Shown here: one piece after another, positions 31,244-61,690 of the stretch
Layout of the letters: every line of letters starts with the position of its first letter
Position numbering within the stretch: the first letter of the stretch is position 1
Assembly (NCBI GenBank): GCA_028753945.1
Contig: JAPNXP010000006.1
Location: forward strand, 3,100,001-3,164,000
DNA: 64,000 nucleotides
Source: Hexactinellida sp. DTS-2022
Taxonomy: Eukaryota > Porifera > Hexactinellida
Direction of reading: 5' to 3'
The notes under the pieces: generated by a model
What the model saw: the letters and a program-made list of their open reading frames with translations, nothing else
What the model was told of the DNA's origin: nothing
Database searches by the model: none
Made by a program: the position numbers and the translations under genes

Positions 31244-32400
31244 CGCCCAGTCATCATCACTATGAAGGTGTTAAATTATTTCAGAAAGGTGTTTCAGAAG
31301 GCAACGACCCTTTAGAGTGGTGGAAGTTTCCATTCAGCTCACTTCATTAAAGAGATATTCTAGTTTCAGTAGAATATAATCTGTAATGACTCAGCATTTT
31401 TTAAGTGGGTGTTGGGTCATCAACCAACATTAACTAACCCATTTTAAATATCGAATTAACAAAATTGTAAAAACACATTTTTTTAACGATGTCATCATCA
31501 CCTAAAGGTGTCAAGACCCACTTGTATAGGTGGCACGTGTCATAAGGACCAATTGATATATTGAAAGTTTGTTTCTATCTTCTATGATCTCTGAGATTTA
31601 TGATATTTAATTAATTAGTATAAATAATTATTAATATTATTTATAATATGACACCAATTTCAATGTCAACATACAATTATTAAGTTCAATTATTTTGTCA
31701 TAAATAATTAATTAATTAATTTATCTATCAAATTTCAATTCCGCACACTCGATAACCTCTAATATACAAATTGGAAGCTTCTATATAAGTTAAATACAAA
31801 CTGAATTATTTATAATTAATTACGTCAGTATATTAACAGTGCAATTATATTCTCGCAGAAGTAAATATAATCACATAATATGTCGTTGTTATGAAATATA
31901 TAATCTTAATTTTCAATTGCAAAATAGAAGCCAGCTTGAATTCACAAGTTAAATCAATATAATTATAGCAAGTTGAATCACTAGAGTAGGATTTAACAAG
32001 TTAAATCAATATAATTATTACAAGTTGAAACAATGGAATTAGATTTAACACTTTACTGAAACTGAAGTGTGAGTAAACAAAGAAATTTAAGCCCCCATTT
32101 GTGGCAGAAATTAAACCCCTTATTGAAAGATTTCTTCTCCCATCAGACGCAGAATTTTACGGTGAATCCAAATATGAAATAAAATTTGCGGGTTTAGTAA
32201 AACATATTTTGAGTTATGGACCAGACAAATTTTGAAAGGTGTTAAAGATGTGTCCAAAATTTGTTAATAAAAAATCGTAACCCCAGGTGCAAATTAGACG
32301 GTCCCATCGCACCTACATGCCAAGTTTCAGCCCATCAACAATTAAGCTCTGGCCATTGCACCGTCTACGGAGAAAAAAAAAAAAAATAATAAAAATAATA

Positions 32401-33783
32401 ATTTGCACCTGGGGTTACGATTTTTGATTAACAAATTTTTGACACATCTTTAACACCTTTCAAAATTTGTCTGGTCCATAACACAAAATATGTTTTACTA
32501 AACCCCCAAATTTTATTTCACATTTGGATTCACCATAAAATTCTGCGTCTGATGGGAGAAGAAAACTTTCAATAAAGAGTTTTATTTCTGCCATAAATGG
32601 GGGTTGAAATTTCTTTGTTTACTCACACTTCAGTTTCAGTATAACTGTTAAATCTAATTCCATTGTTTCAACTTGTAATAATTATATTGATTTAACTTGT
32701 TAAATCTTACTCTATTGATTCAACTTGCGATAATTAAATTGATTTAACTTATAAATTGCAGCTGGCTTCTATTTAATTTACCATACAATGGATTAAATAA
32801 AATAATATAATATAAGGAATTTGTTGACTTAATTTAACTCAACCGTGGATAACAATGCTAATATAAATAACTAATAATATAATTTCTTATCAATACATAA
32901 TGAATGAATGGCATCAAACTGAAGATGGTTTAAGATAGAAACAAACTTCAAATTTATCTACCGTTCCTTGTGACTCGGACCAATTAACAAATGCTTCTTC
33001 ACACCTTGGGCGTTGATGACTTGGCGAAAAAAAATCCAAAATTGCACCCTGTGCCGACGCATGTTCCTTTGGTGGCACTATATTTTGTTGGTTGTTTATT
33101 GATAGTGCCTCCAAAGGAACATGCTGTCGGCGCAGGCTGCAATTTTGGATTTTTTTTCGCCAAGTCATCAACGCCCAAGGTGTGAAGAAGCATTTGTTAA
33201 TTGGTCCGAGTCACAAGGAACGGTAGATAAATTTGAAGTTTGTTTCTATCTTAAACCATCTTCAGTTTGATGCCATTCATTCATTATGTATTGATAAGAA
33301 ATTATATTATTAGTTATTTATATTAGCATTGTTATCCACGGTTGAGTTAAATTAAGTCAACAAATTCCTTATATTATATTATTTTATTTAATCCATTGTA
33401 TGGTAAATTAAATAGAAGCCAGCTGCAATTTATAAGTTAAATCAATTTAATTATCGCAAGTTGAATCAATAGAGTAAGATTTAACAAGTTAAATCAATAT
33501 AATTATTACAAGTTGAAACAATGGAATTAGATTTAACAGTTATACTGAAACTGAAGTGTGAGTAAACAAAGAAATTTCAACCCCCATTTATGGCAGAAAT
33601 AAAACTCTTTATTGAAAGTTTTCTTCTCCCATCAGACGCAGAATTTTATGGTGAATCCAAATGTGAAATAAAATTTGGGGGTTTAGTAAAACATATTTTG
33701 TGTTATGGACCAGACAAATTTTGAAAGGTGTTAAAGATGTGTCAAAAATTTGTTAATCAAAAATCGTAACCCCAGGTGCAAAT
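32401..33783. repeat. 1.38 kb palindrome with hairpin H at its centre
   Basis: From 'atttgcacctggggttacg' (32401) to its reverse complement ending 33783, the arms are near-identical inverted copies of module A plus B1, symmetric about 33092. The centre is hairpin copy 18. This is the only place where module A runs in the reverse direction. Confidence 0.9.
33035..33158. repeat. Hairpin H, copy 18 (centre of palindrome)
   Basis: Left arm 'gcaccctgtgccgacgc', right arm 'gtcggcgcaggctgc'. The flanks on both sides read 'cttggcgaaaaaaaatcc' or its complement. Confidence 0.88.
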
Positions 33784-33900
33784 TAGACGGTCCCATCGCA
33801 CCTACATGCCAAGTTTCAGCCCATCAACTATAAAGCTCAGGCCAGGGCACCGTCTACGGAGAAAAAAAAAAAAAATAATAATAAAGGCAGTGATTCTAAT

Positions 33901-44000: not shown

Positions 44001-44620
44001 GGCCCGTATTCACTAAGAAGTTAAGTACGTACTTAAGTACGTACTTAGTACTTAAGTACTAAGTATGTACTTAAGTCGTATTCACTAAGATTGGTATTCA
44101 CTAAGATTTAAGTGTGTACTTAAGTACATACTTAAGTACAAAACTTAAGTAACCTACTAAGTTGACTTAACTTATAAGAATTTTCTTTTATTGACTCTTT
44201 AGACGTTGGTGTTTAATTAGAACATTGTATTAGATTTCTAGTAGTACTTGCTTTACTTTAGGGGAAGTTTATGATTCTATTTTCAACATTTATTACAATT
44301 GGTTGTTGTTTTCTAAAAGTCTGTTTTTTCTCAAGCACAAAAATCACAGGAACTTCATTGAGAATATTCTTTTTAAAGTTAAAAGAATACAGCAAGCTAT
44401 TACAATAGCATTCCATACACTAATATGCTATGCTATTAAATATAATTCAATAAATATAATTCAATTTCGTACTTAAGTACGTACTTAGTTAAGTATGTAC
44501 TTAAGTACAACAATATTTCTTAGTGAATACGACTTAAGTATGTACTTAACTAAGTACGTACTTAGTACTTAAGTATATACTTAGTACTTAAGTACTAAGT
44601 AATCTTAGTGAATACGGGCC
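44001..44620. mobile_element. PIF/Harbinger MITE with CAG target duplication
   Basis: The ends GGCCCGTATTCACTAAG and CTTAGTGAATACGGGCC are inverted, flanked by CAG (43998-44000 and 44621-44623), which fits the CWG target of PIF elements. The subterminal sequence is dense in 'aagtacgtacttaagtac' palindromes. Removing it and one CAG leaves a 43-bp intron. Confidence 0.85.
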
Positions 44621-45510: not shown

Positions 45511-46304
45511 AATGTTCCAACTTCCAAGTGTTTTCATTGCACTTATGAAACACATATTGGTACACTTACAATCAGGGGCGCCGAACTTTTAAAAAAGTCC
45601 AAAACTGAGGGGGGGCTCGAAACCTTTAATAAAACTTTATAGAAGTTTTAATAACAACAATGCATAATCGATGCTAAGACTAAAATTATGGACTGTATTT
45701 TTCTTCAAATAATAACCGGGAACATCATTGATTTTCCGAGGGTATTGATCATTCATAGGATACAGCTATAAATGCTAAATACTGTGAGATATAAACGCTG
45801 AAAAATTCATAAAATAATAAATGATATACATATTAACAAATCAGCATACTCAAGTTTTGAATTAAAAAAGTTCACAAAATGAGAATTTGCCAATTTGTTT
45901 ATTTAAAATTCCTTAAAATTTTCCAAGGAGTTTTGGGTTAATTGTCAAAGTTAGTTGCTCCTCCAGCAGGGTAACCAGGGGCCGTATTCACTAAGAAGTT
46001 AAGCACTAAGTTTGAACTTAAGTCTTAAGTTCGAACTTAAGTCTTAAGTTCAAACTTAGTTAAGTTCGAACTTAAGTCGTATTCACTAAGAGTTAAGTTC
46101 AAACTTAAGTTCAAACTTAGTTAAGTTTGAACTTAAGTATGAACTTTTTTACTTTTAATTTTATTTCACTCAATTTCTATTCTCTTGGAGTTTGGAATCG
46201 GCCTCAAATAATAATATAGTTAAATATACCTAAATATTTACATAAATATTTGTTGGCTACAATGTTTTGTGAATCTCTTATTTATTAAAGAATGGCTACA
46301 TAAT

Positions 46305-46829: not shown

Positions 46830-47573
46830 ATGGAAAAATCCAGGAAGATAAATTGGACTAAGGAAGAAGAGTGCGCGCTCATTGGTGAAATTGAATCTGC
46901 TGGCGACTTATTGAGAGGTTCAGGAAACAGCGCTGACCTCAATAAGAAGAAGAAGGAACTGTGGAAAACCATTACAGGCAAAGTCAACGCTGTATATGGA
47001 AATAATAGAGGGGTAGAAGACTTAAGAAAGAAATGGAATAACCTGAAGTTAGCTTCCAAGTCAAAAGTTGATGCTAGCTTTAGGGAATCTAGAATAACCG
47101 GAGGGGGCTCAAACTCCGCTGGGATTGTCGAAGACGAAGATATATTAATTTTAGCTGCAGATAGGAGTATAAATAACTCTGATAGAATTAGAGAGATGTT
47201 TGAGAACACCCCAGCTTTTATCGGAATCTCAGGTGCTGTCGATAATTTCGTACCACCAGCAACAGCAACCAGCAGCGAACAGATTCCTCAGCTAGGTACT
47301 GTAGACGATACGTCAATTTTTTATGCTCCCGAAGAACCCAACATTAACGTTAATCGTAATGGGAAGAAAAGTAGGAAGCGAAGACGTGATCCAACAGATT
47401 ATCTACGTACAACGGAGTCCCAGCAGCAGCCGGAAATGAAGGTAGCGGACTTACTCCCTTTACAGCAAGAAGTGCTGCTACAACAGATGGCTGTATTCGC
47501 AGCACAACTTAAGCTAATTGAAGAGCAGAGGGAGTACTACAGGCTGAAACGTCAGAAGCTGTTAGAAAAATGA
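46830..47573 (+). CDS. Myb/SANT-like DNA-binding protein of the PIF/Harbinger element
   Basis: A complete 247-codon frame, ATG to TGA. Residues 7-80 form a Myb/SANT-like trihelix domain: INWTKEEECALI, then KKKKELWKTITGKVNAV, then DLRKKWNNLK, with the three spaced Trp at residues 9, 45 and 69. The pattern resembles the Myb_DNA-bind_5 / NAIF1-type domain. An acidic middle is followed by a strong basic nuclear-localisation stretch (GKKSRKRRRD, near residue 180). A Gln-rich coiled coil (LLPLQQEVLLQQMAVFAAQL) and a basic C-terminus end the protein. In PIF/Harbinger systems the Myb-like protein binds the transposase, carries it to the nucleus and binds the element ends. The frame is intact although the transposase is lost, so it may act in trans or be a recent deletion product. 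Confidence 0.82.
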   Translation: MEKSRKINWTKEEECALIGEIESAGDLLRGSGNSADLNKKKKELWKTITGKVNAVYGNNRGVEDLRKKWNNLKLASKSKVDASFRESRITGGGSNSAGIVEDEDILILAADRSINNSDRIREMFENTPAFIGISGAVDNFVPPATATSSEQIPQLGTVDDTSIFYAPEEPNINVNRNGKKSRKRRRDPTDYLRTTESQQQPEMKVADLLPLQQEVLLQQMAVFAAQLKLIEEQREYYRLKRQKLLEK

Positions 47574-48001
47574 TTAAATTAGTTACTAGCTAGACTAGAT
47601 AGTGTGCAGAAATATAACGATTTTACTTGTATTATGTCAACCAAATTAGAGAGTAGCATAAAAGTATACTATTATTATTACGAATCCGAAGAAATTCTTA
47701 ATTTAGTCTAATACAAAATTACTTAAGCAACCTCCCTAGCTTGCTTAAAGTTCGTACTTAAGTTCGAACTTAAGTACGAACTAAAATCTTAGTGAATACC
47801 AATCTTAGTGAATACGACTTAAGTTCGAACTTAAGTACGAACTAAAATCTTAGTGAATACGACTTAAGTTCGAACTTAGTACTTAAGTCTTAAGTTCGAA
47901 CTTAAGTTCGAACTTAACTTCTTAGTGAATACGGCCCCTGATGACTACTTTCAAAGAAGGACACGTTTAAAATTACAGAGATCGCAGGTTGAGAAACCCA
48001 G

Positions 48002-48332
48002 TATGTTACGAGATGAGGCCACGTCCTAGTATCGAAGACTAGCTGCTCTAGCTGACCCCATCCCGTAAGGATGTTACGTGTGTGGTTTCGTCCCATTGCA
48101 GAGACTCATCAGGAGGGTAACCCTCGACCACCATGCGTACTGTCGCACCTCTCGCTCCAGCCCGCAGCTCCTGCGAGTGCCGTACTGCCCATGTACTCCA
48201 TAGTCCTAAACTATGGTTACCAGTCGTACTGCCGGCCTGTGAATACTCACTTACCTATGAGTCTGCCCGTACTGCCACCTATAGTCTTTCCCAAGGACTA
48301 TACTCCTGAAGGCTACAGGTGATATCTATAAC
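48002..48332 (-). repeat. Hammerhead-bearing repeat, copy A
   Basis: A 331-bp repeat, near-identical to 48506-48836 and in the same orientation. It contains several short inverted pairs (ccatagtcctaaactatgg, actatagtc..gactatagt types), so the RNA would be highly structured. The open frame across it is a by-product of this. Confidence 0.9.
48082..48131 (-). ncRNA. Hammerhead ribozyme (type I), copy A
   Basis: The minus strand reads GUGGUC|GAGGG-UUA-CCCUC, CUGAUGAG, UCUC-UGCAAU-GGGA, CGAAACCAC. All core elements are present: CUGAUGA, GAAA and the GUC cleavage triplet. Stem I (GAGGG/CCCUC), stem II (GUCUC/GGGAC with one G-U) and a 4-bp stem III (GUGG/CCAC) form. Predicted self-cleavage is 3' of the GUC. 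Confidence 0.9.
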
Positions 48333-48505
48333 ATCACCTTCCCTTTTTAGCCTTCCACACAACCTGCAGCCGCGCCGTAACTGTTGCGCCCGACGCCACA
48401 GGTGCCACCAGTCAACCATGTCTTCAGCCGCCTCCGAGCCCTACGCTCCTGAGCAACTGTCGACTGGTCGACCGTAACATAAGTACTGCTCATATGAGGA
48501 GTACT

Positions 48506-48836
48506 TATGTTACGAGATGAGGCCACGTCCTAGTATCGAAGACTAGCCGCTCTAGCTGACCCCATCCCGTAAGGATGTTACGTGTGTGGTTTCGTCCCAT
48601 TGCAGAGACTCATCAGGAGGGTAACCCTCGACCACCATGCGTACTGTCGCACCTCTCGCTCCAGCCCGCAGCTCCTGCGAGTGCCGTACTGCCCATGTAC
48701 TCCATAGTCCTAAACTATGGTTACCAGTCGTACTGCCGGCCTGTGAATACTCACTTACCTATGAGTCTGCCCGTACTGCCACCTATAGTCTTTCCCAAGG
48801 ACTATACTCCTGAAGGCTACAGGTGATATCTATAAC
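48506..48836 (-). repeat. Hammerhead-bearing repeat, copy B
   Basis: Direct tandem partner of copy A with a period of exactly 504 bp; one difference noted (agctgctc in A, agccgctc in B). The 173-bp spacer ends in a hairpin, GTAACATAAGTACT against AGTACTTATGTTAC, immediately before copy B. Confidence 0.9.
48586..48635 (-). ncRNA. Hammerhead ribozyme (type I), copy B
   Basis: Same core and stems as copy A. Cleavage at both copies in one transcript would release a 504-nt monomer. Confidence 0.9.
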
Positions 48837-49613
48837 AAGTAGAGTAGAACATTTGAGAATAAAGGCTTTTGTACAAGGACATGGGCTAGTATACTTTAAT
48901 AATTCTGAGTATGGTTAAACAACAAAGGTATTTAGACAGGTAGAGGAGTGGATTATCAGACTGAACAGACTGTAAACAATTTTTAAAAAGATACAAAAGG
49001 ACACAGTGTAAGAAAGCAGTTAGCATGACTGCCTGAGAAGGACTGTCATTCTAAAAATAGGACATTTGGACACCCTGCTCGTCAGGTCCTTTGGCCAAAA
49101 CCCTCCACCCCCCTGGCCCACCCTCGCGAGACCCCCTGGCCCCCCCTCGCCCCCCGGGTTTGACACGAGGGGGGGCTAGGGCCCCCCTGCCCCCCCCGGG
49201 TTCGGCGCCTATGCTTACAATAACATTATCTAGCAGATAGTAGGCTTATGCAATATGTCTATAGTATTCAGTATACTATAGAGTAATTACAATATGCAGA
49301 AGATGGCTGATTTACATAAAAAACCGTTAATAAAACGTAGAATTGATTAGCGCCTAATAAATTTAATTGATATATAGAAAGAACATCCTTAGGAGAATAC
49401 AACCTCTATATTTTCAATAACTAATTCGAATTATTAAAGAGTCACTGGACCAGAATACAAATTTCGATATAACTGACGGACAAAAGCGAAATTGAGAAAT
49501 CGGGCTTCGAGGTGATCATCTCCAGGAAATTATATATCTCCTGTCCAAATTTTAAATCTCTATCACCAATGGTTTAGTCAGTCCATCGCGTACGCCCGGC
49601 CGGGTACTATAGG

Positions 49614-49861: not shown

Positions 49862-50498
49862 ACTATAGGTCACTTCGTACCCAACACCCTTTCGTACCTT
49901 AATCACGACAACTTCGTACCCAATACTCTTTCGTACTCAACACTTTTTCGTACCCGATACTATTCCGTACTTGACATTATTACATTTAGGTATAAATAAA
50001 GTTTAAGTATTAATAGTGTACTTCTAAATCTAAATCATTAAATTCTCTATCAAAGTCAAGTTAGTCAACACAGCATATTTATCCTGAAAGAGGTCCGTTC
50101 AATGGCCGAATGCTCTTAGTAATTGGGACGTGGAGATCTCGTTGTCCTGATAGCGTCGCCAATTTCAAATATCTTTCCCTGAAGTTTTCTGTGTTGTGTC
50201 CGTTGATGTCGCCGCAGTTTCCTTTCTGAAATTAGCCGAAGATGGAGCTCACAGTTAACGACTCGAAGTATAGAAGTGGGATTAAAACATACAGCTGCAG
50301 ATTTCCGTTATCTACAGCTTTGGAGTTCAATCGACGGTGGTAACCTTCTAAATCATTGTTCGTTCTTATGCCCTGTGTAGTATCGGGGCCGGGTTAGTGT
50401 TGTGATGGAGACACACCCCGGCAGGAGGCACGAGTGTCGTGATGGAGACACCGTGGCAATAAGGAAGCGTGACCACCCACAGGCGTGAGTGGAGTCAT

Positions 50499-50548
50499 GG
50501 GGTCGAGGGTCACCCTCCTGATGAGTTCCTGTAATGGAACGAAACCCC
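50499..50548 (+). ncRNA. Hammerhead ribozyme (type I), copy C, diverged
   Basis: GGGGUC|GAGGG-UCA-CCCUC, CUGAUGAG, UUCC-UGUAAU-GGAA, CGAAACCCC. Stem III is GGGG/CCCC instead of GUGG/CCAC, and stem II is GUUCC/GGAAC instead of GUCCC/GGGAC, so both helices changed on both sides while the core is unchanged. The surrounding ~200 bp (repeated 'gtgatggagacac') is unlike copies A, B, D and E. Confidence 0.88.
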
Positions 50549-51260
50549 ACTAGTAGGTTATGTACGCTACTAGTCTACAGTTGCCCATCGTCGTAGTCTC
50601 CGTTACTACACCCTGCATGAATACACACCAGTTTGAAGGTTTAAACACCGTTGAAAGAATCCATGTATTCTCTACATACTGGAATAGGGGCTGAATATGT
50701 GTTGTGGCTTTTCCTTAAGTGTATTGAACACAGGGATTATTCTTTGACAATTTTCTTGCATACGATGCATAGGTCACTCATAATTATTGATTAAGAGTAT
50801 TTAAAACAGTATTTATACTCAAACATTTGTTTCGTCGACAAACCTAAGAAGGACACTTTTTTCGTGAATACATAAACAACTGTCACTGCATTGATAACAC
50901 TTATGATTATTTACCAAAAACAATTAGCCATTAGTCAACAAATTCGCACCACAAAGACACTTTGGTCACATTAAATAATACATGTTAACATTGGGCCCGA
51001 AATTATGATGGGTACGAAATTGTGTTAGGTACGAAATTGCAATTTAGTGCGAAATGGCAGGAGTAGAAATTGTTTTGTAGCGAAATGACTTGTATTCCGG
51101 CCGCCCGGCCGGAAGTCTGGCAGAGGTAAATTCAATAGTGTGCACTTATAGTATAAAACTATAGTAGGACCCTACTATAACGTTTTTTACTAGAAGAAGC
51201 ACACTAAAAAATTAATAAAATAAGCCTCCAATAATGTGGTTTATAATTTTGACATTTAGT

Positions 51261-53520: not shown

Positions 53521-53837
53521 GATTTGTGGAGGTATTTAAAAGTACTGAGCGCATGGGCCTACGGTACTAAGCGCATGCGGCTACGGTACTGAGCGCATGC
53601 GCCTATCGTACTGAGCGCATGCGCCTCTATATTTAATTTACATATCAAAACAGCATATATTAAAAAGTACAATACGCATGTCCCTTTTAGATATCGTGGG
53701 TGTCAGTTAGTAATAGGCATTCTAGTAGGAATTCTAACGCTGGCGATAGCTGTATATTTACCAGGATATGCGTTAATCTGTATTTTACATTTAAAACTTC
53801 ATTCTGCAAACCTTATTTATTTATTTATTATGTGACG

Positions 53838-54155
53838 AGTATCACCTAGAGCCTTCAGGAGTAGTGTCCTTGGGAAAGGCACTAGGTGGAAGTACGGGAC
53901 ACTACATGAGTAGTCTGTAGATAGTCCGGCAGTACGACTGGTAACCATAGTCTAGGACTATGGATACATGGGAAGTACGGCACTCGCAGGAGCCACGGGC
54001 TGGAGCGAGAGGTGCGGCAGTACGCATGGTGGTCGAGGGTTACCCTCCTGATGAGTCCCTGCAATGGGACGAAACCACACACGTAACATCCCTATGGGAT
54101 GGGGTCAGCTAGAGCGTCTAGTCCTCATACTAGTACGTGGCCTCATCTCATAACA
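53838..54155 (+). repeat. Hammerhead-bearing repeat, copy D
   Basis: About 85% similar by eye to copies A/B, opposite orientation, inserted just inside the left inverted repeat of the 7.5 kb transposon. Confidence 0.85.
54029..54078 (+). ncRNA. Hammerhead ribozyme (type I), copy D
   Basis: GUGGUC|GAGGG-UUA-CCCUC, CUGAUGAG, UCCC-UGCAAU-GGGA, CGAAACCAC. All three stems are perfectly paired, making it the best-formed copy. Confidence 0.92.
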
Positions 54156-58086: not shown

Positions 58087-58484
58087 GACATCGTCTGTTA
58101 AGAAAATAGTTTACGATCAATCGTGTAATAGGAGACATTTTCTTTCTGGCGTGGCAAAGTTGATTCTAGAGAGGTTTCTGAGCAGTATTCGAATGCCTTA
58201 TAGTGATAACATTCATTTGTAAAGCACTGTAAGCATTGTTTCTCGCGCGTATTAATCACTATTTTCTTTTTGGAGATTGATAGTTTTCCTGAATTAATTA
58301 ATTAAGATAAAATAATGTCAAGTTCGTATGCATAAAATCATGTCGAATTAATAATTACGAGCCCTTCGGTCTCGGTCGCTTTGCGACAGATCGGTGCTAC
58401 GCACCTCAAGTTAACGGCCGCTGAGCGGCCTTACTCCTCACATTTTCTACCATGGAAATGGTAGATAGCTACAGTATCTAATTT

Positions 58485-60195
58485 TCATTAATTTGTTTAC
58501 CTATTTTGTGTAAACAACAACAACAAATATTCATATTAGAAAATTTTAACCGCGAAAATCGTGTTCAGCACACTTGTTTACTTATAATACCTATTGAAAG
58601 TTAACTTCTAGGTTGATTTTGAATTTTCATTAAATTGTTTAGCTATTTTGAGTAAACAACAACAACAACAACAACAAATATTCATATTAGAAAATTTTAA
58701 ACGCGAAATTCGTGTTCAGCATACTTGTTTACCTATAATACCCGTTGAAAACTAACTTCTAGGTTGATTCTGAATTTTCATTAATTTGTTTACCTATTTT
58801 GTGTAAACAACAACAACAAATATTCATATTAGAAAATTTTAACCGCGAAAATCGTGTTCAGCATACTTGTTTACCTATAATACTCGTTGAAAGCTAACTT
58901 CTAGGTTGATTTTGAAATTTCATTAATTTGTTTACCTATTTTGGGTAAACAAAACAATAAATATTCATATTAGAAATTTGTAAATGCGAAATTCGTGTTC
59001 AGCATACTTGTTTACCTATAATACTCGTTGAAAGCTAACTTCTAGGTTGATTTTGAAATTTCATTAATTTGTTTACCTATTTTGTGTAAACAACAACAAC
59101 AACTACAAATATTCATATTACAAATTTAAAAATGCGAAATTTGTGTTCAGCATACTTGTTTACCTATAATACTCGTTGAAAGCTAACTTCTAGGTTGATT
59201 TTGAATTTTCATTAATTTGTTTACCTATTTTGTGTAAACAACAACAACAACTACAAATATTCATATTACAAATTTAAAAATGCGAAATTTGTGTTCAGCA
59301 TACTTGTTTACCTATAATACTCGTTGAAAGCTAACTTCTAGGTTGATTTTGAATTTTCATTAATTTGTTTACCTATTTTGTGTAAACAACAACAACAACT
59401 ACAAATATTCATATTACAAATTTAAAAATGCGAAATTTGTGTTCAGCATACTTGTTTACCTATAATACTCGTTGAAAGCTAACTTCTAGGTTGATTTTGA
59501 AATTTCATTAATTTGTTTACCTATTTTGGGTAAACAAAACAATAAATATTCATATTAGAAATTTGTAAATGCGAAATTCGTGTTCAGCATACTTGTTTAC
59601 CTATAATACTCGTTGAAAGCTAACTTCTAGGTTGATTTTGAAATTTCATTAATTTGTTTACCTATTTTGTGTAAACAACAACAACAACTACAAATATTCA
59701 TATTACAAATTTAAAAATGCCAAAATCGTGTTCAGCATACTTGTTTACCTATAATACTCGTTGAAAGCTAACTTCTAGGTTGATTTTGAAATTTCATTAA
59801 TTTGTTTACCTATTTTGTGTAAACAACAACAACAACTACAAATATTCATATTACAAATTTAAAAATGCTAAAATCGTGTTCAGCATACTTGTTTACCTAT
59901 AATACTCGTTGAAAGCTAACTTCTAGGTTGATTTTGAAATTTCATTAATTTGTTTACCTATTTTGTGTAAACAACAACAACAACTACAAATATTCATATT
60001 ACAAATTTAAAAATGCTAAAATCGTGTTCAGCATACTTGTTTACCTATAATACTCGTTGAAAGCTAACTTCTAGGTTGATTTTGAATTTTCATTAATTTG
60101 TTTACCTATTTTGTGTAAACAACAACAACAAATATTCATATTAGAAATTTATAAACGCGAAATTCGTGTTCAGCATACTTGTTTACCTATTATAA
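58485..60195. repeat. Minisatellite, about 12 units of 140-150 bp
   Basis: Units contain 'gtttacctattttgtgtaaac' (an inverted pair), 'caacaacaac', 'aatattcatatta', 'tgttcagcatacttgtttacc' and 'gctaacttctaggttgattt'. The middle units are nearly identical, suggesting recent amplification. It lies inside the 7.5 kb transposon between the transposase-like gene and the MADF-like exon. Confidence 0.92.
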
Positions 60196-61189: not shown

Positions 61190-61466
61190 GAGCATCACTA
61201 TGACCTTCAGGAGTAGTGTACTTGGGAAAGGCACTATGTGGCAGTACGGGCAGACTGACTACGGGTCTTAGTATTCACATGCCGGCAGTACGACTGGTAA
61301 TCTAGTAGTGACACTAGGTTGCGAGGCGCAATAAGAGTCGTCGAGGATTACCCTCCTGATGAGTCCCTGCGATGGGACGAAACCACTGACATATCATCCC
61401 TATGAGGTGGGTGCCTATGGACGACTAATCTCCATACTAGGTCGTGGCCTCATCTCATATCATCAG
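61190..61466 (+). repeat. Hammerhead-bearing repeat, copy E
   Basis: Begins 'gagcatcactatgaccttcagg' and ends 'ggtcgtggcctcatctcata'. It is shorter and more diverged than A, B and D. Confidence 0.8.
61337..61386 (+). ncRNA. Hammerhead ribozyme, copy E (degenerate)
   Basis: The core CUGAUGAG, GAAAC and GUC is kept and stem II (GUCCC/GGGAC) is perfect. Stem III (GUCG/CCAC) has one mismatch and stem I (GAGGA/CCCUC) another, so activity is doubtful. Confidence 0.7.
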
Positions 61467-61690
61467 TACCCATTCATTAATGAGGGAGTACTGATGATAT
61501 GAGATGAGGCCACGACCTAGTATGGAGACGAGTCGTCAATAGGCCCCCAACTCATAGGGATGATATGGTGCGCGCTACGCTGCACTGCTCATGGACGTAG
61601 GGTCCGGAGCCGGTGAGCGTGAGCATAACCAGCAGGTGGATCCCGAGCTAGAGGAAGACCTGGCGCGGCAGGAGTGAAGTGATATCTGTT
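61440..61690. repeat. Inverted junction and partial hammerhead repeat F
   Basis: 'atctcatatcatcagtac' and 'gtactgatgatatgagatg' form a hairpin joining copy E to an inverted partial copy F (matching the first ~70 bp of copy A, then diverging). The diverged part contains a 27-codon frame starting MDVGSGAGEREHNQQ and a doubled 'gaagtgatatctg'. No ribozyme core occurs in F. Confidence 0.7.

Follow-up and report, generated by a model that had tools for sequence, protein, structure and literature searches.

A probable LTR retrozyme in a sponge genome

The window, a 64,000-nt stretch of contig JAPNXP010000006.1 from the sponge Hexactinellida sp. DTS-2022, harbored an element that its sequence places with the LTR retrozymes, given its LTRs, type III hammerheads, polypurine tract, 4-bp target duplications, and dispersed solo copies. 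We consider it likely that this is a young, non-autonomous LTR retrozyme, the putative RNA circle of which would be copied via a self-priming Ty3/gypsy helper, with a hairpin at the LTR/internal junction as the proposed primer.

An initial sequence-only reading of this region had described two near-identical 331-bp direct repeats spaced 504 bp apart. The repeats were real, with 332 bp matched (about 331-332) between 48002-48333 and 48506-48837, one mismatch (offset 42) and the 504-bp spacing, although the exact LTRs were 330 bp in length, located at 48004-48333 and 48508-48837. Both LTRs had TG...CA ends and the whole element was enclosed by a 4-bp AGTA duplication (Table 1). The proposal of a retrozyme-like, non-coding, dimeric hammerhead retroelement, with double cleavage predicted to release a 504-nt RNA, was upheld by the RF00008 matches, the repeats and their spacing. 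The same was true of the hairpin reported to close the spacer, an inverted repeat (48473-48493/48494-48514) with 95% complementarity, and of the statement that the element has no protein of its own, in that it contained no ORF of at least 200 aa and no stop-to-stop frame of at least 110 aa. The predicted 504-nt monomer had a G+C content of 54%, and 67% of its bases were paired in the predicted fold. For a rotation of the 504-nt monomer the fold z was -6.9, and 0 of 100 shuffles were that low.

Table 1. Coordinates of the retrozyme and related hammerhead copies, as positions in the window.
Feature	Position	Strand	Basis or remark
Target site duplication, 5′ side (element sense)	48838..48841	-	AGTA on +, TACT on -
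5′ LTR, 330 bp, TGTTATAG...CTCGTAACA (minus sense)	48508..48837	-	Ends backed by 4-bp duplications around solo copies
Type III hammerhead in 5′ LTR; predicted cut at 48630/48629, 3′ of GUC	48584..48637	-	RF00008, 53.7 bits
Junction hairpin (proposed self-primer), at the usual primer-binding-site position	48473..48514	-	Inverted repeat
Internal region, 174 bp	48334..48507	-	No stop-to-stop frame of at least 110 aa
Predicted hairpin around the polypurine tract/3′ LTR junction	48308..48355	-	Fold; recurs in monomer folds
Polypurine tract AAAAAGGGAAGGTGA, abuts 3′ LTR	48334..48348	-	Sequence
3′ LTR, 330 bp, one mismatch to 5′ LTR	48004..48333	-	Repeat comparison
Type III hammerhead in 3′ LTR; predicted cut at 48126/48125	48080..48133	-	RF00008, 53.7 bits
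Target site duplication, 3′ side (AGTA on +)	48000..48003	-	Sequence
Predicted 504-nt monomer RNA	48126..48629	-	Between predicted cleavage sites
Solo LTR, family B, 235 bp; hammerhead 50497-50550	50376..50610	+	5-bp duplication CCCTG, 50371-50375/50611-50615
Solo LTR, 325 bp, close relative of main element (L020); hammerhead 54027-54080	53831..54155	+	Duplication ATTA, 53827-53830/54156-54159
Hammerhead 61335-61388, then palindrome 61390-61567 (91%) centred on a junction-type hairpin	61335..61567	+	Remnant of inverted structure

Other repeats were noted in the window. A block of ~24 kb (10280-34385) comprised many copies of repeat units spaced ~0.85-2.4 kb apart, within which lay a palindromic ACTGGGCCACTATACTATAGTATAGTCGGCACAGT module and a perfect inverted repeat of 660 bp (32399-33785). 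A 148-bp satellite in ~12 copies (93% matches) was located at 58483-60194. Beside the element (47748-47932) were palindromic ACTTAAGTTCGAACTTAAGT arrays, and comparable arrays were located at 44021-44609 and 46007-46146. Additionally, the product of a 247-aa ORF (46830-47573), with 53 homologues, contained a DNA-binding domain of the Myb/SANT-like type (PF13873) and may serve a DNA transposon as an accessory protein. As for the host, a sugar transporter encoded beside copy L011 had two proteins of Oopsacas minuta, a glass sponge, as its closest named relatives (57% and 51% identity); the remaining named hits among the 120 listed of 145 fell below 31%, and hits without a species name reached up to 83%. 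On this one protein, the host is probably a glass sponge; a search of the assembly for COX1 yielded no match.

Type III hammerheads in the LTRs and core matches across the genome

A complete minus-strand hammerhead was present in each repeat, as originally noted; both passed the gathering score of Rfam RF00008 (Hammerhead_3) at 53.7 bits (E 4.4e-9 each), far beyond chance. Their designation as type I did not hold, because loops close helices I (GAGGGUUACCCUC) and II and helix III is open, making them type III; RF00008 is the type III hammerhead model. Cleavage positions were predicted from the known chemistry of the hammerhead family. Three further type III hammerheads were identified with RF00008 on the plus strand of the window (Table 1), and the exact hammerhead core pattern occurred 230 times in the genome (116 + 114), as compared to 0 times when read backwards as a control.

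The hammerhead helices covaried in 38 distinct copies (0.172 versus a shuffled mean of 0.082, with 0 of 500 shuffles as high), selected by core motif such that core invariance is by construction. Seven pairs were altered on both sides, a number reached by 5 of 500 shuffles, in a control that leaves relatedness in. The core was lost in two fetched LTR copies, L032 and L037. A 66-nt piece containing a single hammerhead folded no better than shuffles (z -0.52), and single-hammerhead folds were set aside as uninformative.

Copies, families, and target duplications

A DNA search of 112.4 Mb in 18 contigs, in which 40 of 373 candidates were scored, recovered at least 60 matches to the 504-bp unit, most of them inside the repeat part. 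The 230 core matches were spread over several LTR families, in which solo LTRs predominated and two-LTR elements were few. Perfect 4-bp duplications flanked 14 of the 15 solo LTRs of the window's family that had both ends intact, the exception being L026. This count pertains to the loci fetched, among them 30 of the 60 matches of the 504-bp-unit search, and leaves out the window element (L009, L010), copies joined to internal sequence or in the array (L004 = L031, L016-L018, L024, L025), and those in which an end was lost, altered, or broken up (L019, L032, L034-L038). L019, which is split by another insertion, carried ATAG on both sides. Since solo copies bear 4-bp duplications of their own, we consider the repeats to be LTRs moved by an integrase, not Penelope-like pseudo-LTRs.

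In a second family, B, the LTRs measured 222-238 bp and the duplications 5 bp. Specifically, its two-LTR elements L072, L080, and L082 were flanked by ACATG, ACATG, and GTTAC, respectively, while among four solo LTRs a perfect 5-bp duplication was present in one (that in the window), L045 and L005 had one mismatch, and L061 had none. In all three two-LTR elements TGGCGACGAAGGTGGGAT followed the 5′ LTR and complemented the 3′ end plus CCA of a tRNA-Ser(GCT) gene of the genome, and GAGAGGAG preceded the 3′ LTR. The pattern of LTR end plus primer site was found at four places in the genome, each adjoining at least one hammerhead. Family B thus fits the plant retrozyme definition except in its tRNA, duplication length, and host. 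A tRNA primer site like that of family B was absent from the window's family (A) and from its relatives, families C and E.

Several loci had unusual arrangements. The two family B LTRs of L080 (G000:C11:12237839-12238251) were only 87% alike and had different hammerhead loops, with the 5-bp duplication intact, so that L080 looks like a mosaic arising from template switching. In L047 (G000:C1:4511057-4511327), two family C LTRs were positioned head to tail with almost no centre and hammerheads 238 bp apart, an arrangement that appears similar to a 2-LTR junction. An inverted pair of family B LTRs, L085 (G000:C18:1605700-1606700), had TGGTGCATTGGCCGGGAA after the plus-strand LTR, which resembles a tRNA-Gly primer site more than the tRNA-Ser one.

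A hairpin at the primer-binding-site position

In the window's family a TGG-type tRNA primer site was absent after the 5′ LTR, and the junction hairpin stands there instead. Its 15-bp stem comprised 7 nt of the LTR 3′ end and 8 nt of internal sequence, followed by a 12-nt loop and then their complement. We compared nine such hairpins, hand-picked from 51 contexts, leaving out L043 (a short palindrome), L069, and duplicate arms; four of them (the 61335 copy, L040, L070, and L071) come from inverted structures. Across these nine elements the hairpin covaried: the arms paired in 133 of 135 cells, with both sides altered in at least 9 of 15 columns, whereas only 834 of 1080 cells paired when arms were swapped between the elements. 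All cells (75/75) paired in the five elements that run into internal sequence (the window element, L004, L016, L036, and L084). Moreover, the LTR-derived share of the downstream arm was exactly 7 nt in six of six internal-leading elements, among them L087, which had lost the other arm. The junction hairpin was present in 14 rows of the 51 contexts, some of which represent the same locus, and most of the others were solo LTRs. It was absent from two contexts that enter internal sequence, the third unit of L016 and the minus-strand LTR of L004. Snap-back copying could yield the arm match without selection, and should the arm have originated as a copy of the LTR, part of the agreement would likewise need none.

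Candidate Ty3/gypsy helpers

Three elements chosen for their long ORFs out of 150 listed matches (L089, L090, and L091) were assigned to Ty3/gypsy based on their domain order of RVT_1, RNase H, H2C2, and rve. Their 4-bp duplications were GTAG (L089), ATAG (L091), and ATAC (L090, for which the LTR end was set by eye), and a natural empty site with a single GTAG was present in L019. A purine tract abutted TGTTATA, TGTTAGG, or TGTCATG in the three elements, and a TGG-type primer site was found in none of them. The internal start complemented the element's own LTR over 11 (L089), 12 (L091), and 14 nt (L090), which was matched by 1, 0, and 0 of 500 shuffles, respectively, and such a complement occurred at 0 of 4310, 4479, and 4259 other internal starts. 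In Tf1-type self-priming, pairing takes place between the primer site and the transcript's 5′ end, and an 11-nt rule applies in Tf1. The complement between LTR and internal start in the three Ty3/gypsy elements is a sequence mark of putative self-priming of this type.

For the window LTR, the complement to its own internal start extended over 7 nt only, a length equaled in 46 of 500 shuffles and hence not significant, so that any parallel to the helpers depends on the hairpin. The family C retrozyme L071 and L090 had TGTCATGAT in common, and the likeness between retrozyme and helper LTRs was limited to short terminal boxes, judged by eye in three elements and without statistics.

Two other sources of the copying machinery were considered and rejected. 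In the case of an autonomous element with hammerhead LTRs, 0 of the 150 integrase matches listed (150 scored of 706 candidates) were flanked on both sides by same-strand hammerheads, and 2 of 209 hammerheads were within 8 kb of such a match, using 209 of the 230 hammerhead places. A Copia helper of the GalEa kind was considered for the conserved hairpin site of GalEa; the genome had one Copia reverse transcriptase match (PF07727), which contained a stop.

Under the mechanism we favor, transcription would start from an LTR, the two ribozymes would cut the transcript to yield the 504-nt RNA, and this RNA would be ligated into a circle, with reverse transcription and integration being performed by a self-priming-type Ty3/gypsy helper of the same genome. 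The hairpin is proposed as the primer because an RNA circle would lack a 5′ end to act as a Tf1-type self-primer. The junction hairpin would carry the primer complement in cis, replacing the 5′ end of the transcript, and its 3′ arm, after a nick, would serve as the starting point of minus-strand DNA synthesis leading directly into the LTR. We infer that the retrozyme may carry its own self-primer, such that a closed RNA circle could be reverse transcribed.

Multimers and inverted structures

Among the 209 of 230 hammerhead places listed, 21 neighboring pairs were within 700 bp of each other, of which 11 were on the same strand, eight had U5 ends facing, and two had U3 ends facing. Both outer ends of the inverted structures L070, L071, and L084 were U3, and their duplications, read by eye, were ATAT, CGTA, and ATAC. 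The join point was exactly at the junction hairpin in L071, and at the hairpin plus an extra inverted segment in L070. L084 (G000:C15:1806300-1807300) was a composite of LTR, hairpin, internal region, and partial second LTR, then the opposite strand, all within the one ATAC duplication. In L086, from family B, the U5 ends were outside, with a clean 5-bp duplication (GATTA); as this structure is joined at the U3 side, inversion does not need the junction hairpin. The generalization that inverted pairs are always U5-facing was discarded as wrong, as it held for 8 of 10 pairs only and L086 had the opposite orientation with a clean duplication.

A five-LTR array (C1:7627723-7629906, 2184 bp) had two LTRs oriented one way and three the opposite way inside a single CTAT duplication. 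L069 had no clear outer ends, and L085 and L083 had no clean single duplication, L083 appearing as separate or truncated insertions. At L031 (G000:C13:697087-697619), convergent hammerhead LTRs belonged to two different families. The hammerheads of inverted structures were positioned on both strands. Integration of multimeric cDNA, which repeated copying of a circle would be expected to generate, can account for the array; unequal crossing over would suffice just for its tandem part. Inverted dimers and the five-LTR array, being inside single duplications, fit copying from a self-primed circle.

Alternative explanations

A non-LTR animal retrozyme, driven by Penelope or LINE machinery and with type I hammerheads in pseudo-LTRs, would suit the animal host and has known animal counterparts (PMC7229834), yet it is highly improbable given the type III topology, the TG...CA LTRs with 4-bp duplications, the G+C content of 54%, the polypurine tract, and the lack of an ORF of at least 200 aa; the 4-bp duplications around solo LTRs in themselves speak against it. 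The parallel to Penelope pseudo-LTRs drawn in the sequence-only reading was abandoned on similar grounds, since TG...CA LTRs, 4-bp duplications, a polypurine tract, and type III hammerheads are traits of plant LTR retrozymes; additionally, a Penelope-like ORF with reverse transcriptase was absent between the repeats, where the 174-bp centre is non-coding. We also regard as improbable, albeit less so, a decayed TRIM-like element in which the hammerheads are inactive passengers. The preponderance of solo LTRs over two-LTR elements and the loss of the hammerhead core from L032 and L037 are in line with decay, but the helices covary in the 38 distinct copies and the window LTRs differ at just 1 of 330 positions.

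Other readings accept the same LTR retrozyme and differ on the hairpin or on the multimers. It is possible, though we think it rather unlikely, that the junction hairpin functions in packaging, dimerisation, or RNA stability and that priming relies on some other RNA or on a tRNA that matches partially or atypically. The monomer is highly structured as a whole and has a second predicted hairpin at the polypurine side, and PMC5445492 draws a parallel from such hairpins both to the dimer initiation site of retroviruses and to primer sites. Against this, the window's family is without a TGG-type site, yet family B carries one in the same genome, and three Ty3/gypsy elements whose duplications are likewise 4 bp long look self-priming by sequence. 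Similarly doubtful is the idea that the inverted structures and arrays reflect later DNA rearrangement (unequal crossing over, inversion, or nested insertion) and are thus uninformative on copying. L031 joins different families, L083 looks separate or truncated, and L085 lacks a clean duplication, all as rearrangement would have it, and unequal crossing over would preserve the outer duplications; however, L070, L071, L084, L086, and the five-LTR array are each inside one target duplication and U5 ends face each other in 8 of 10 inverted pairs.

Relationship to known elements

The plant LTR retrozymes of Cervera et al. 2016 (PMC4918200) are alike in having type III hammerheads in ~350-bp LTRs, a non-coding centre, 4-bp duplications, a polypurine tract, mostly isolated LTRs, a highly paired RNA, and a proposed Ty3/gypsy helper. 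The window element differs from them in its animal host and in its unit of 504 nt, as opposed to 600-1000 nt in plants, and, where the plant elements have a tRNA-Met primer site, its family has the hairpin, and family B a tRNA-Ser site together with 5-bp duplications. It would thus work like an LTR retrozyme, failing the plant definition at one feature, the tRNA primer binding site. The inverted dimers seen here were not mentioned in the sections of PMC4918200 considered. Metazoan non-LTR retrozymes (PMC7229834) share an animal host and hammerhead repeats a few hundred bp apart, but are described therein as having type I hammerheads, a G+C content below 50%, larger duplications, and no LTR, PBS, or PPT.

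In terms of priming, self-priming LTR elements (Tf1 and relatives, PMC6934838; hairpin-priming chromoviruses, PMC3601003) are described as being, like the window's family, without a tRNA primer site. As in Tf1-type elements, an LTR stretch complements the internal start in the three sponge Ty3/gypsy elements, whereas the retrozyme complement is a hairpin in cis and is not at the RNA 5′ end. The Conserved Hairpin Site of fungal GalEa (PMC5445492) likewise replaces the primer site with a hairpin near the LTR end, although GalEa is a Copia element with 5-bp duplications. Bivalve TRIMs (PMC6934838) are also short, non-autonomous animal LTR elements with no clear primer site and an inner-domain hairpin; they differ in that no ribozyme is mentioned, the word having 0 occurrences there. 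Because stem-loops around the PPT are reported in other LTR elements (PMC3601003), the hairpin at the polypurine side is not new in kind.

As presented in excerpts of PMC7229834, PMC7761336, PMC11722881, and PMC6155905, animals have type I non-LTR retrozymes and plants type III LTR retrozymes, with complete elements identified in dicots only (PMC11722881). In PMC4918200, metazoan hammerhead repeats are said to have no PBS or PPT, apart from tRNA-Gln in schistosome repeats. Speaking against a strict division between animals and plants, type III hammerheads have been described in insect elements, and type III variants in HDV-like RNAs of animals (both PMC7761336), while mammalian Clec2 genes contain an atypical type III hammerhead (PMC6155905). 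According to a passage in PMC11721086, all retrozymes described contain one ribozyme. Among the open-licence papers that the literature searches listed (no preprints), no title or abstract opening reported an LTR retrozyme in a sponge.

Implications

We tentatively envisage, as a speculative extension, circular-RNA retroelements that have their own hairpin primer and are adapted to a self-priming Ty3/gypsy helper. Snap-back at the hairpin might then produce inverted dimers that integrate via two identical LTR ends, and transcripts of either strand of these would carry a hammerhead, which may provide a DNA-borne route to ribozyme RNAs of both polarities, as in hammerhead viroids. If the favored explanation is true, LTR retrozymes would reach from plants to an early animal lineage, which bears on ancient origin versus transfer, and it would become testable how a closed RNA circle, which lacks a 5′ end, is primed for reverse transcription. 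A self-priming helper, a retrozyme with a hairpin in cis, and integrated multimers and inverted dimers, together in one genome, would offer a concrete model.
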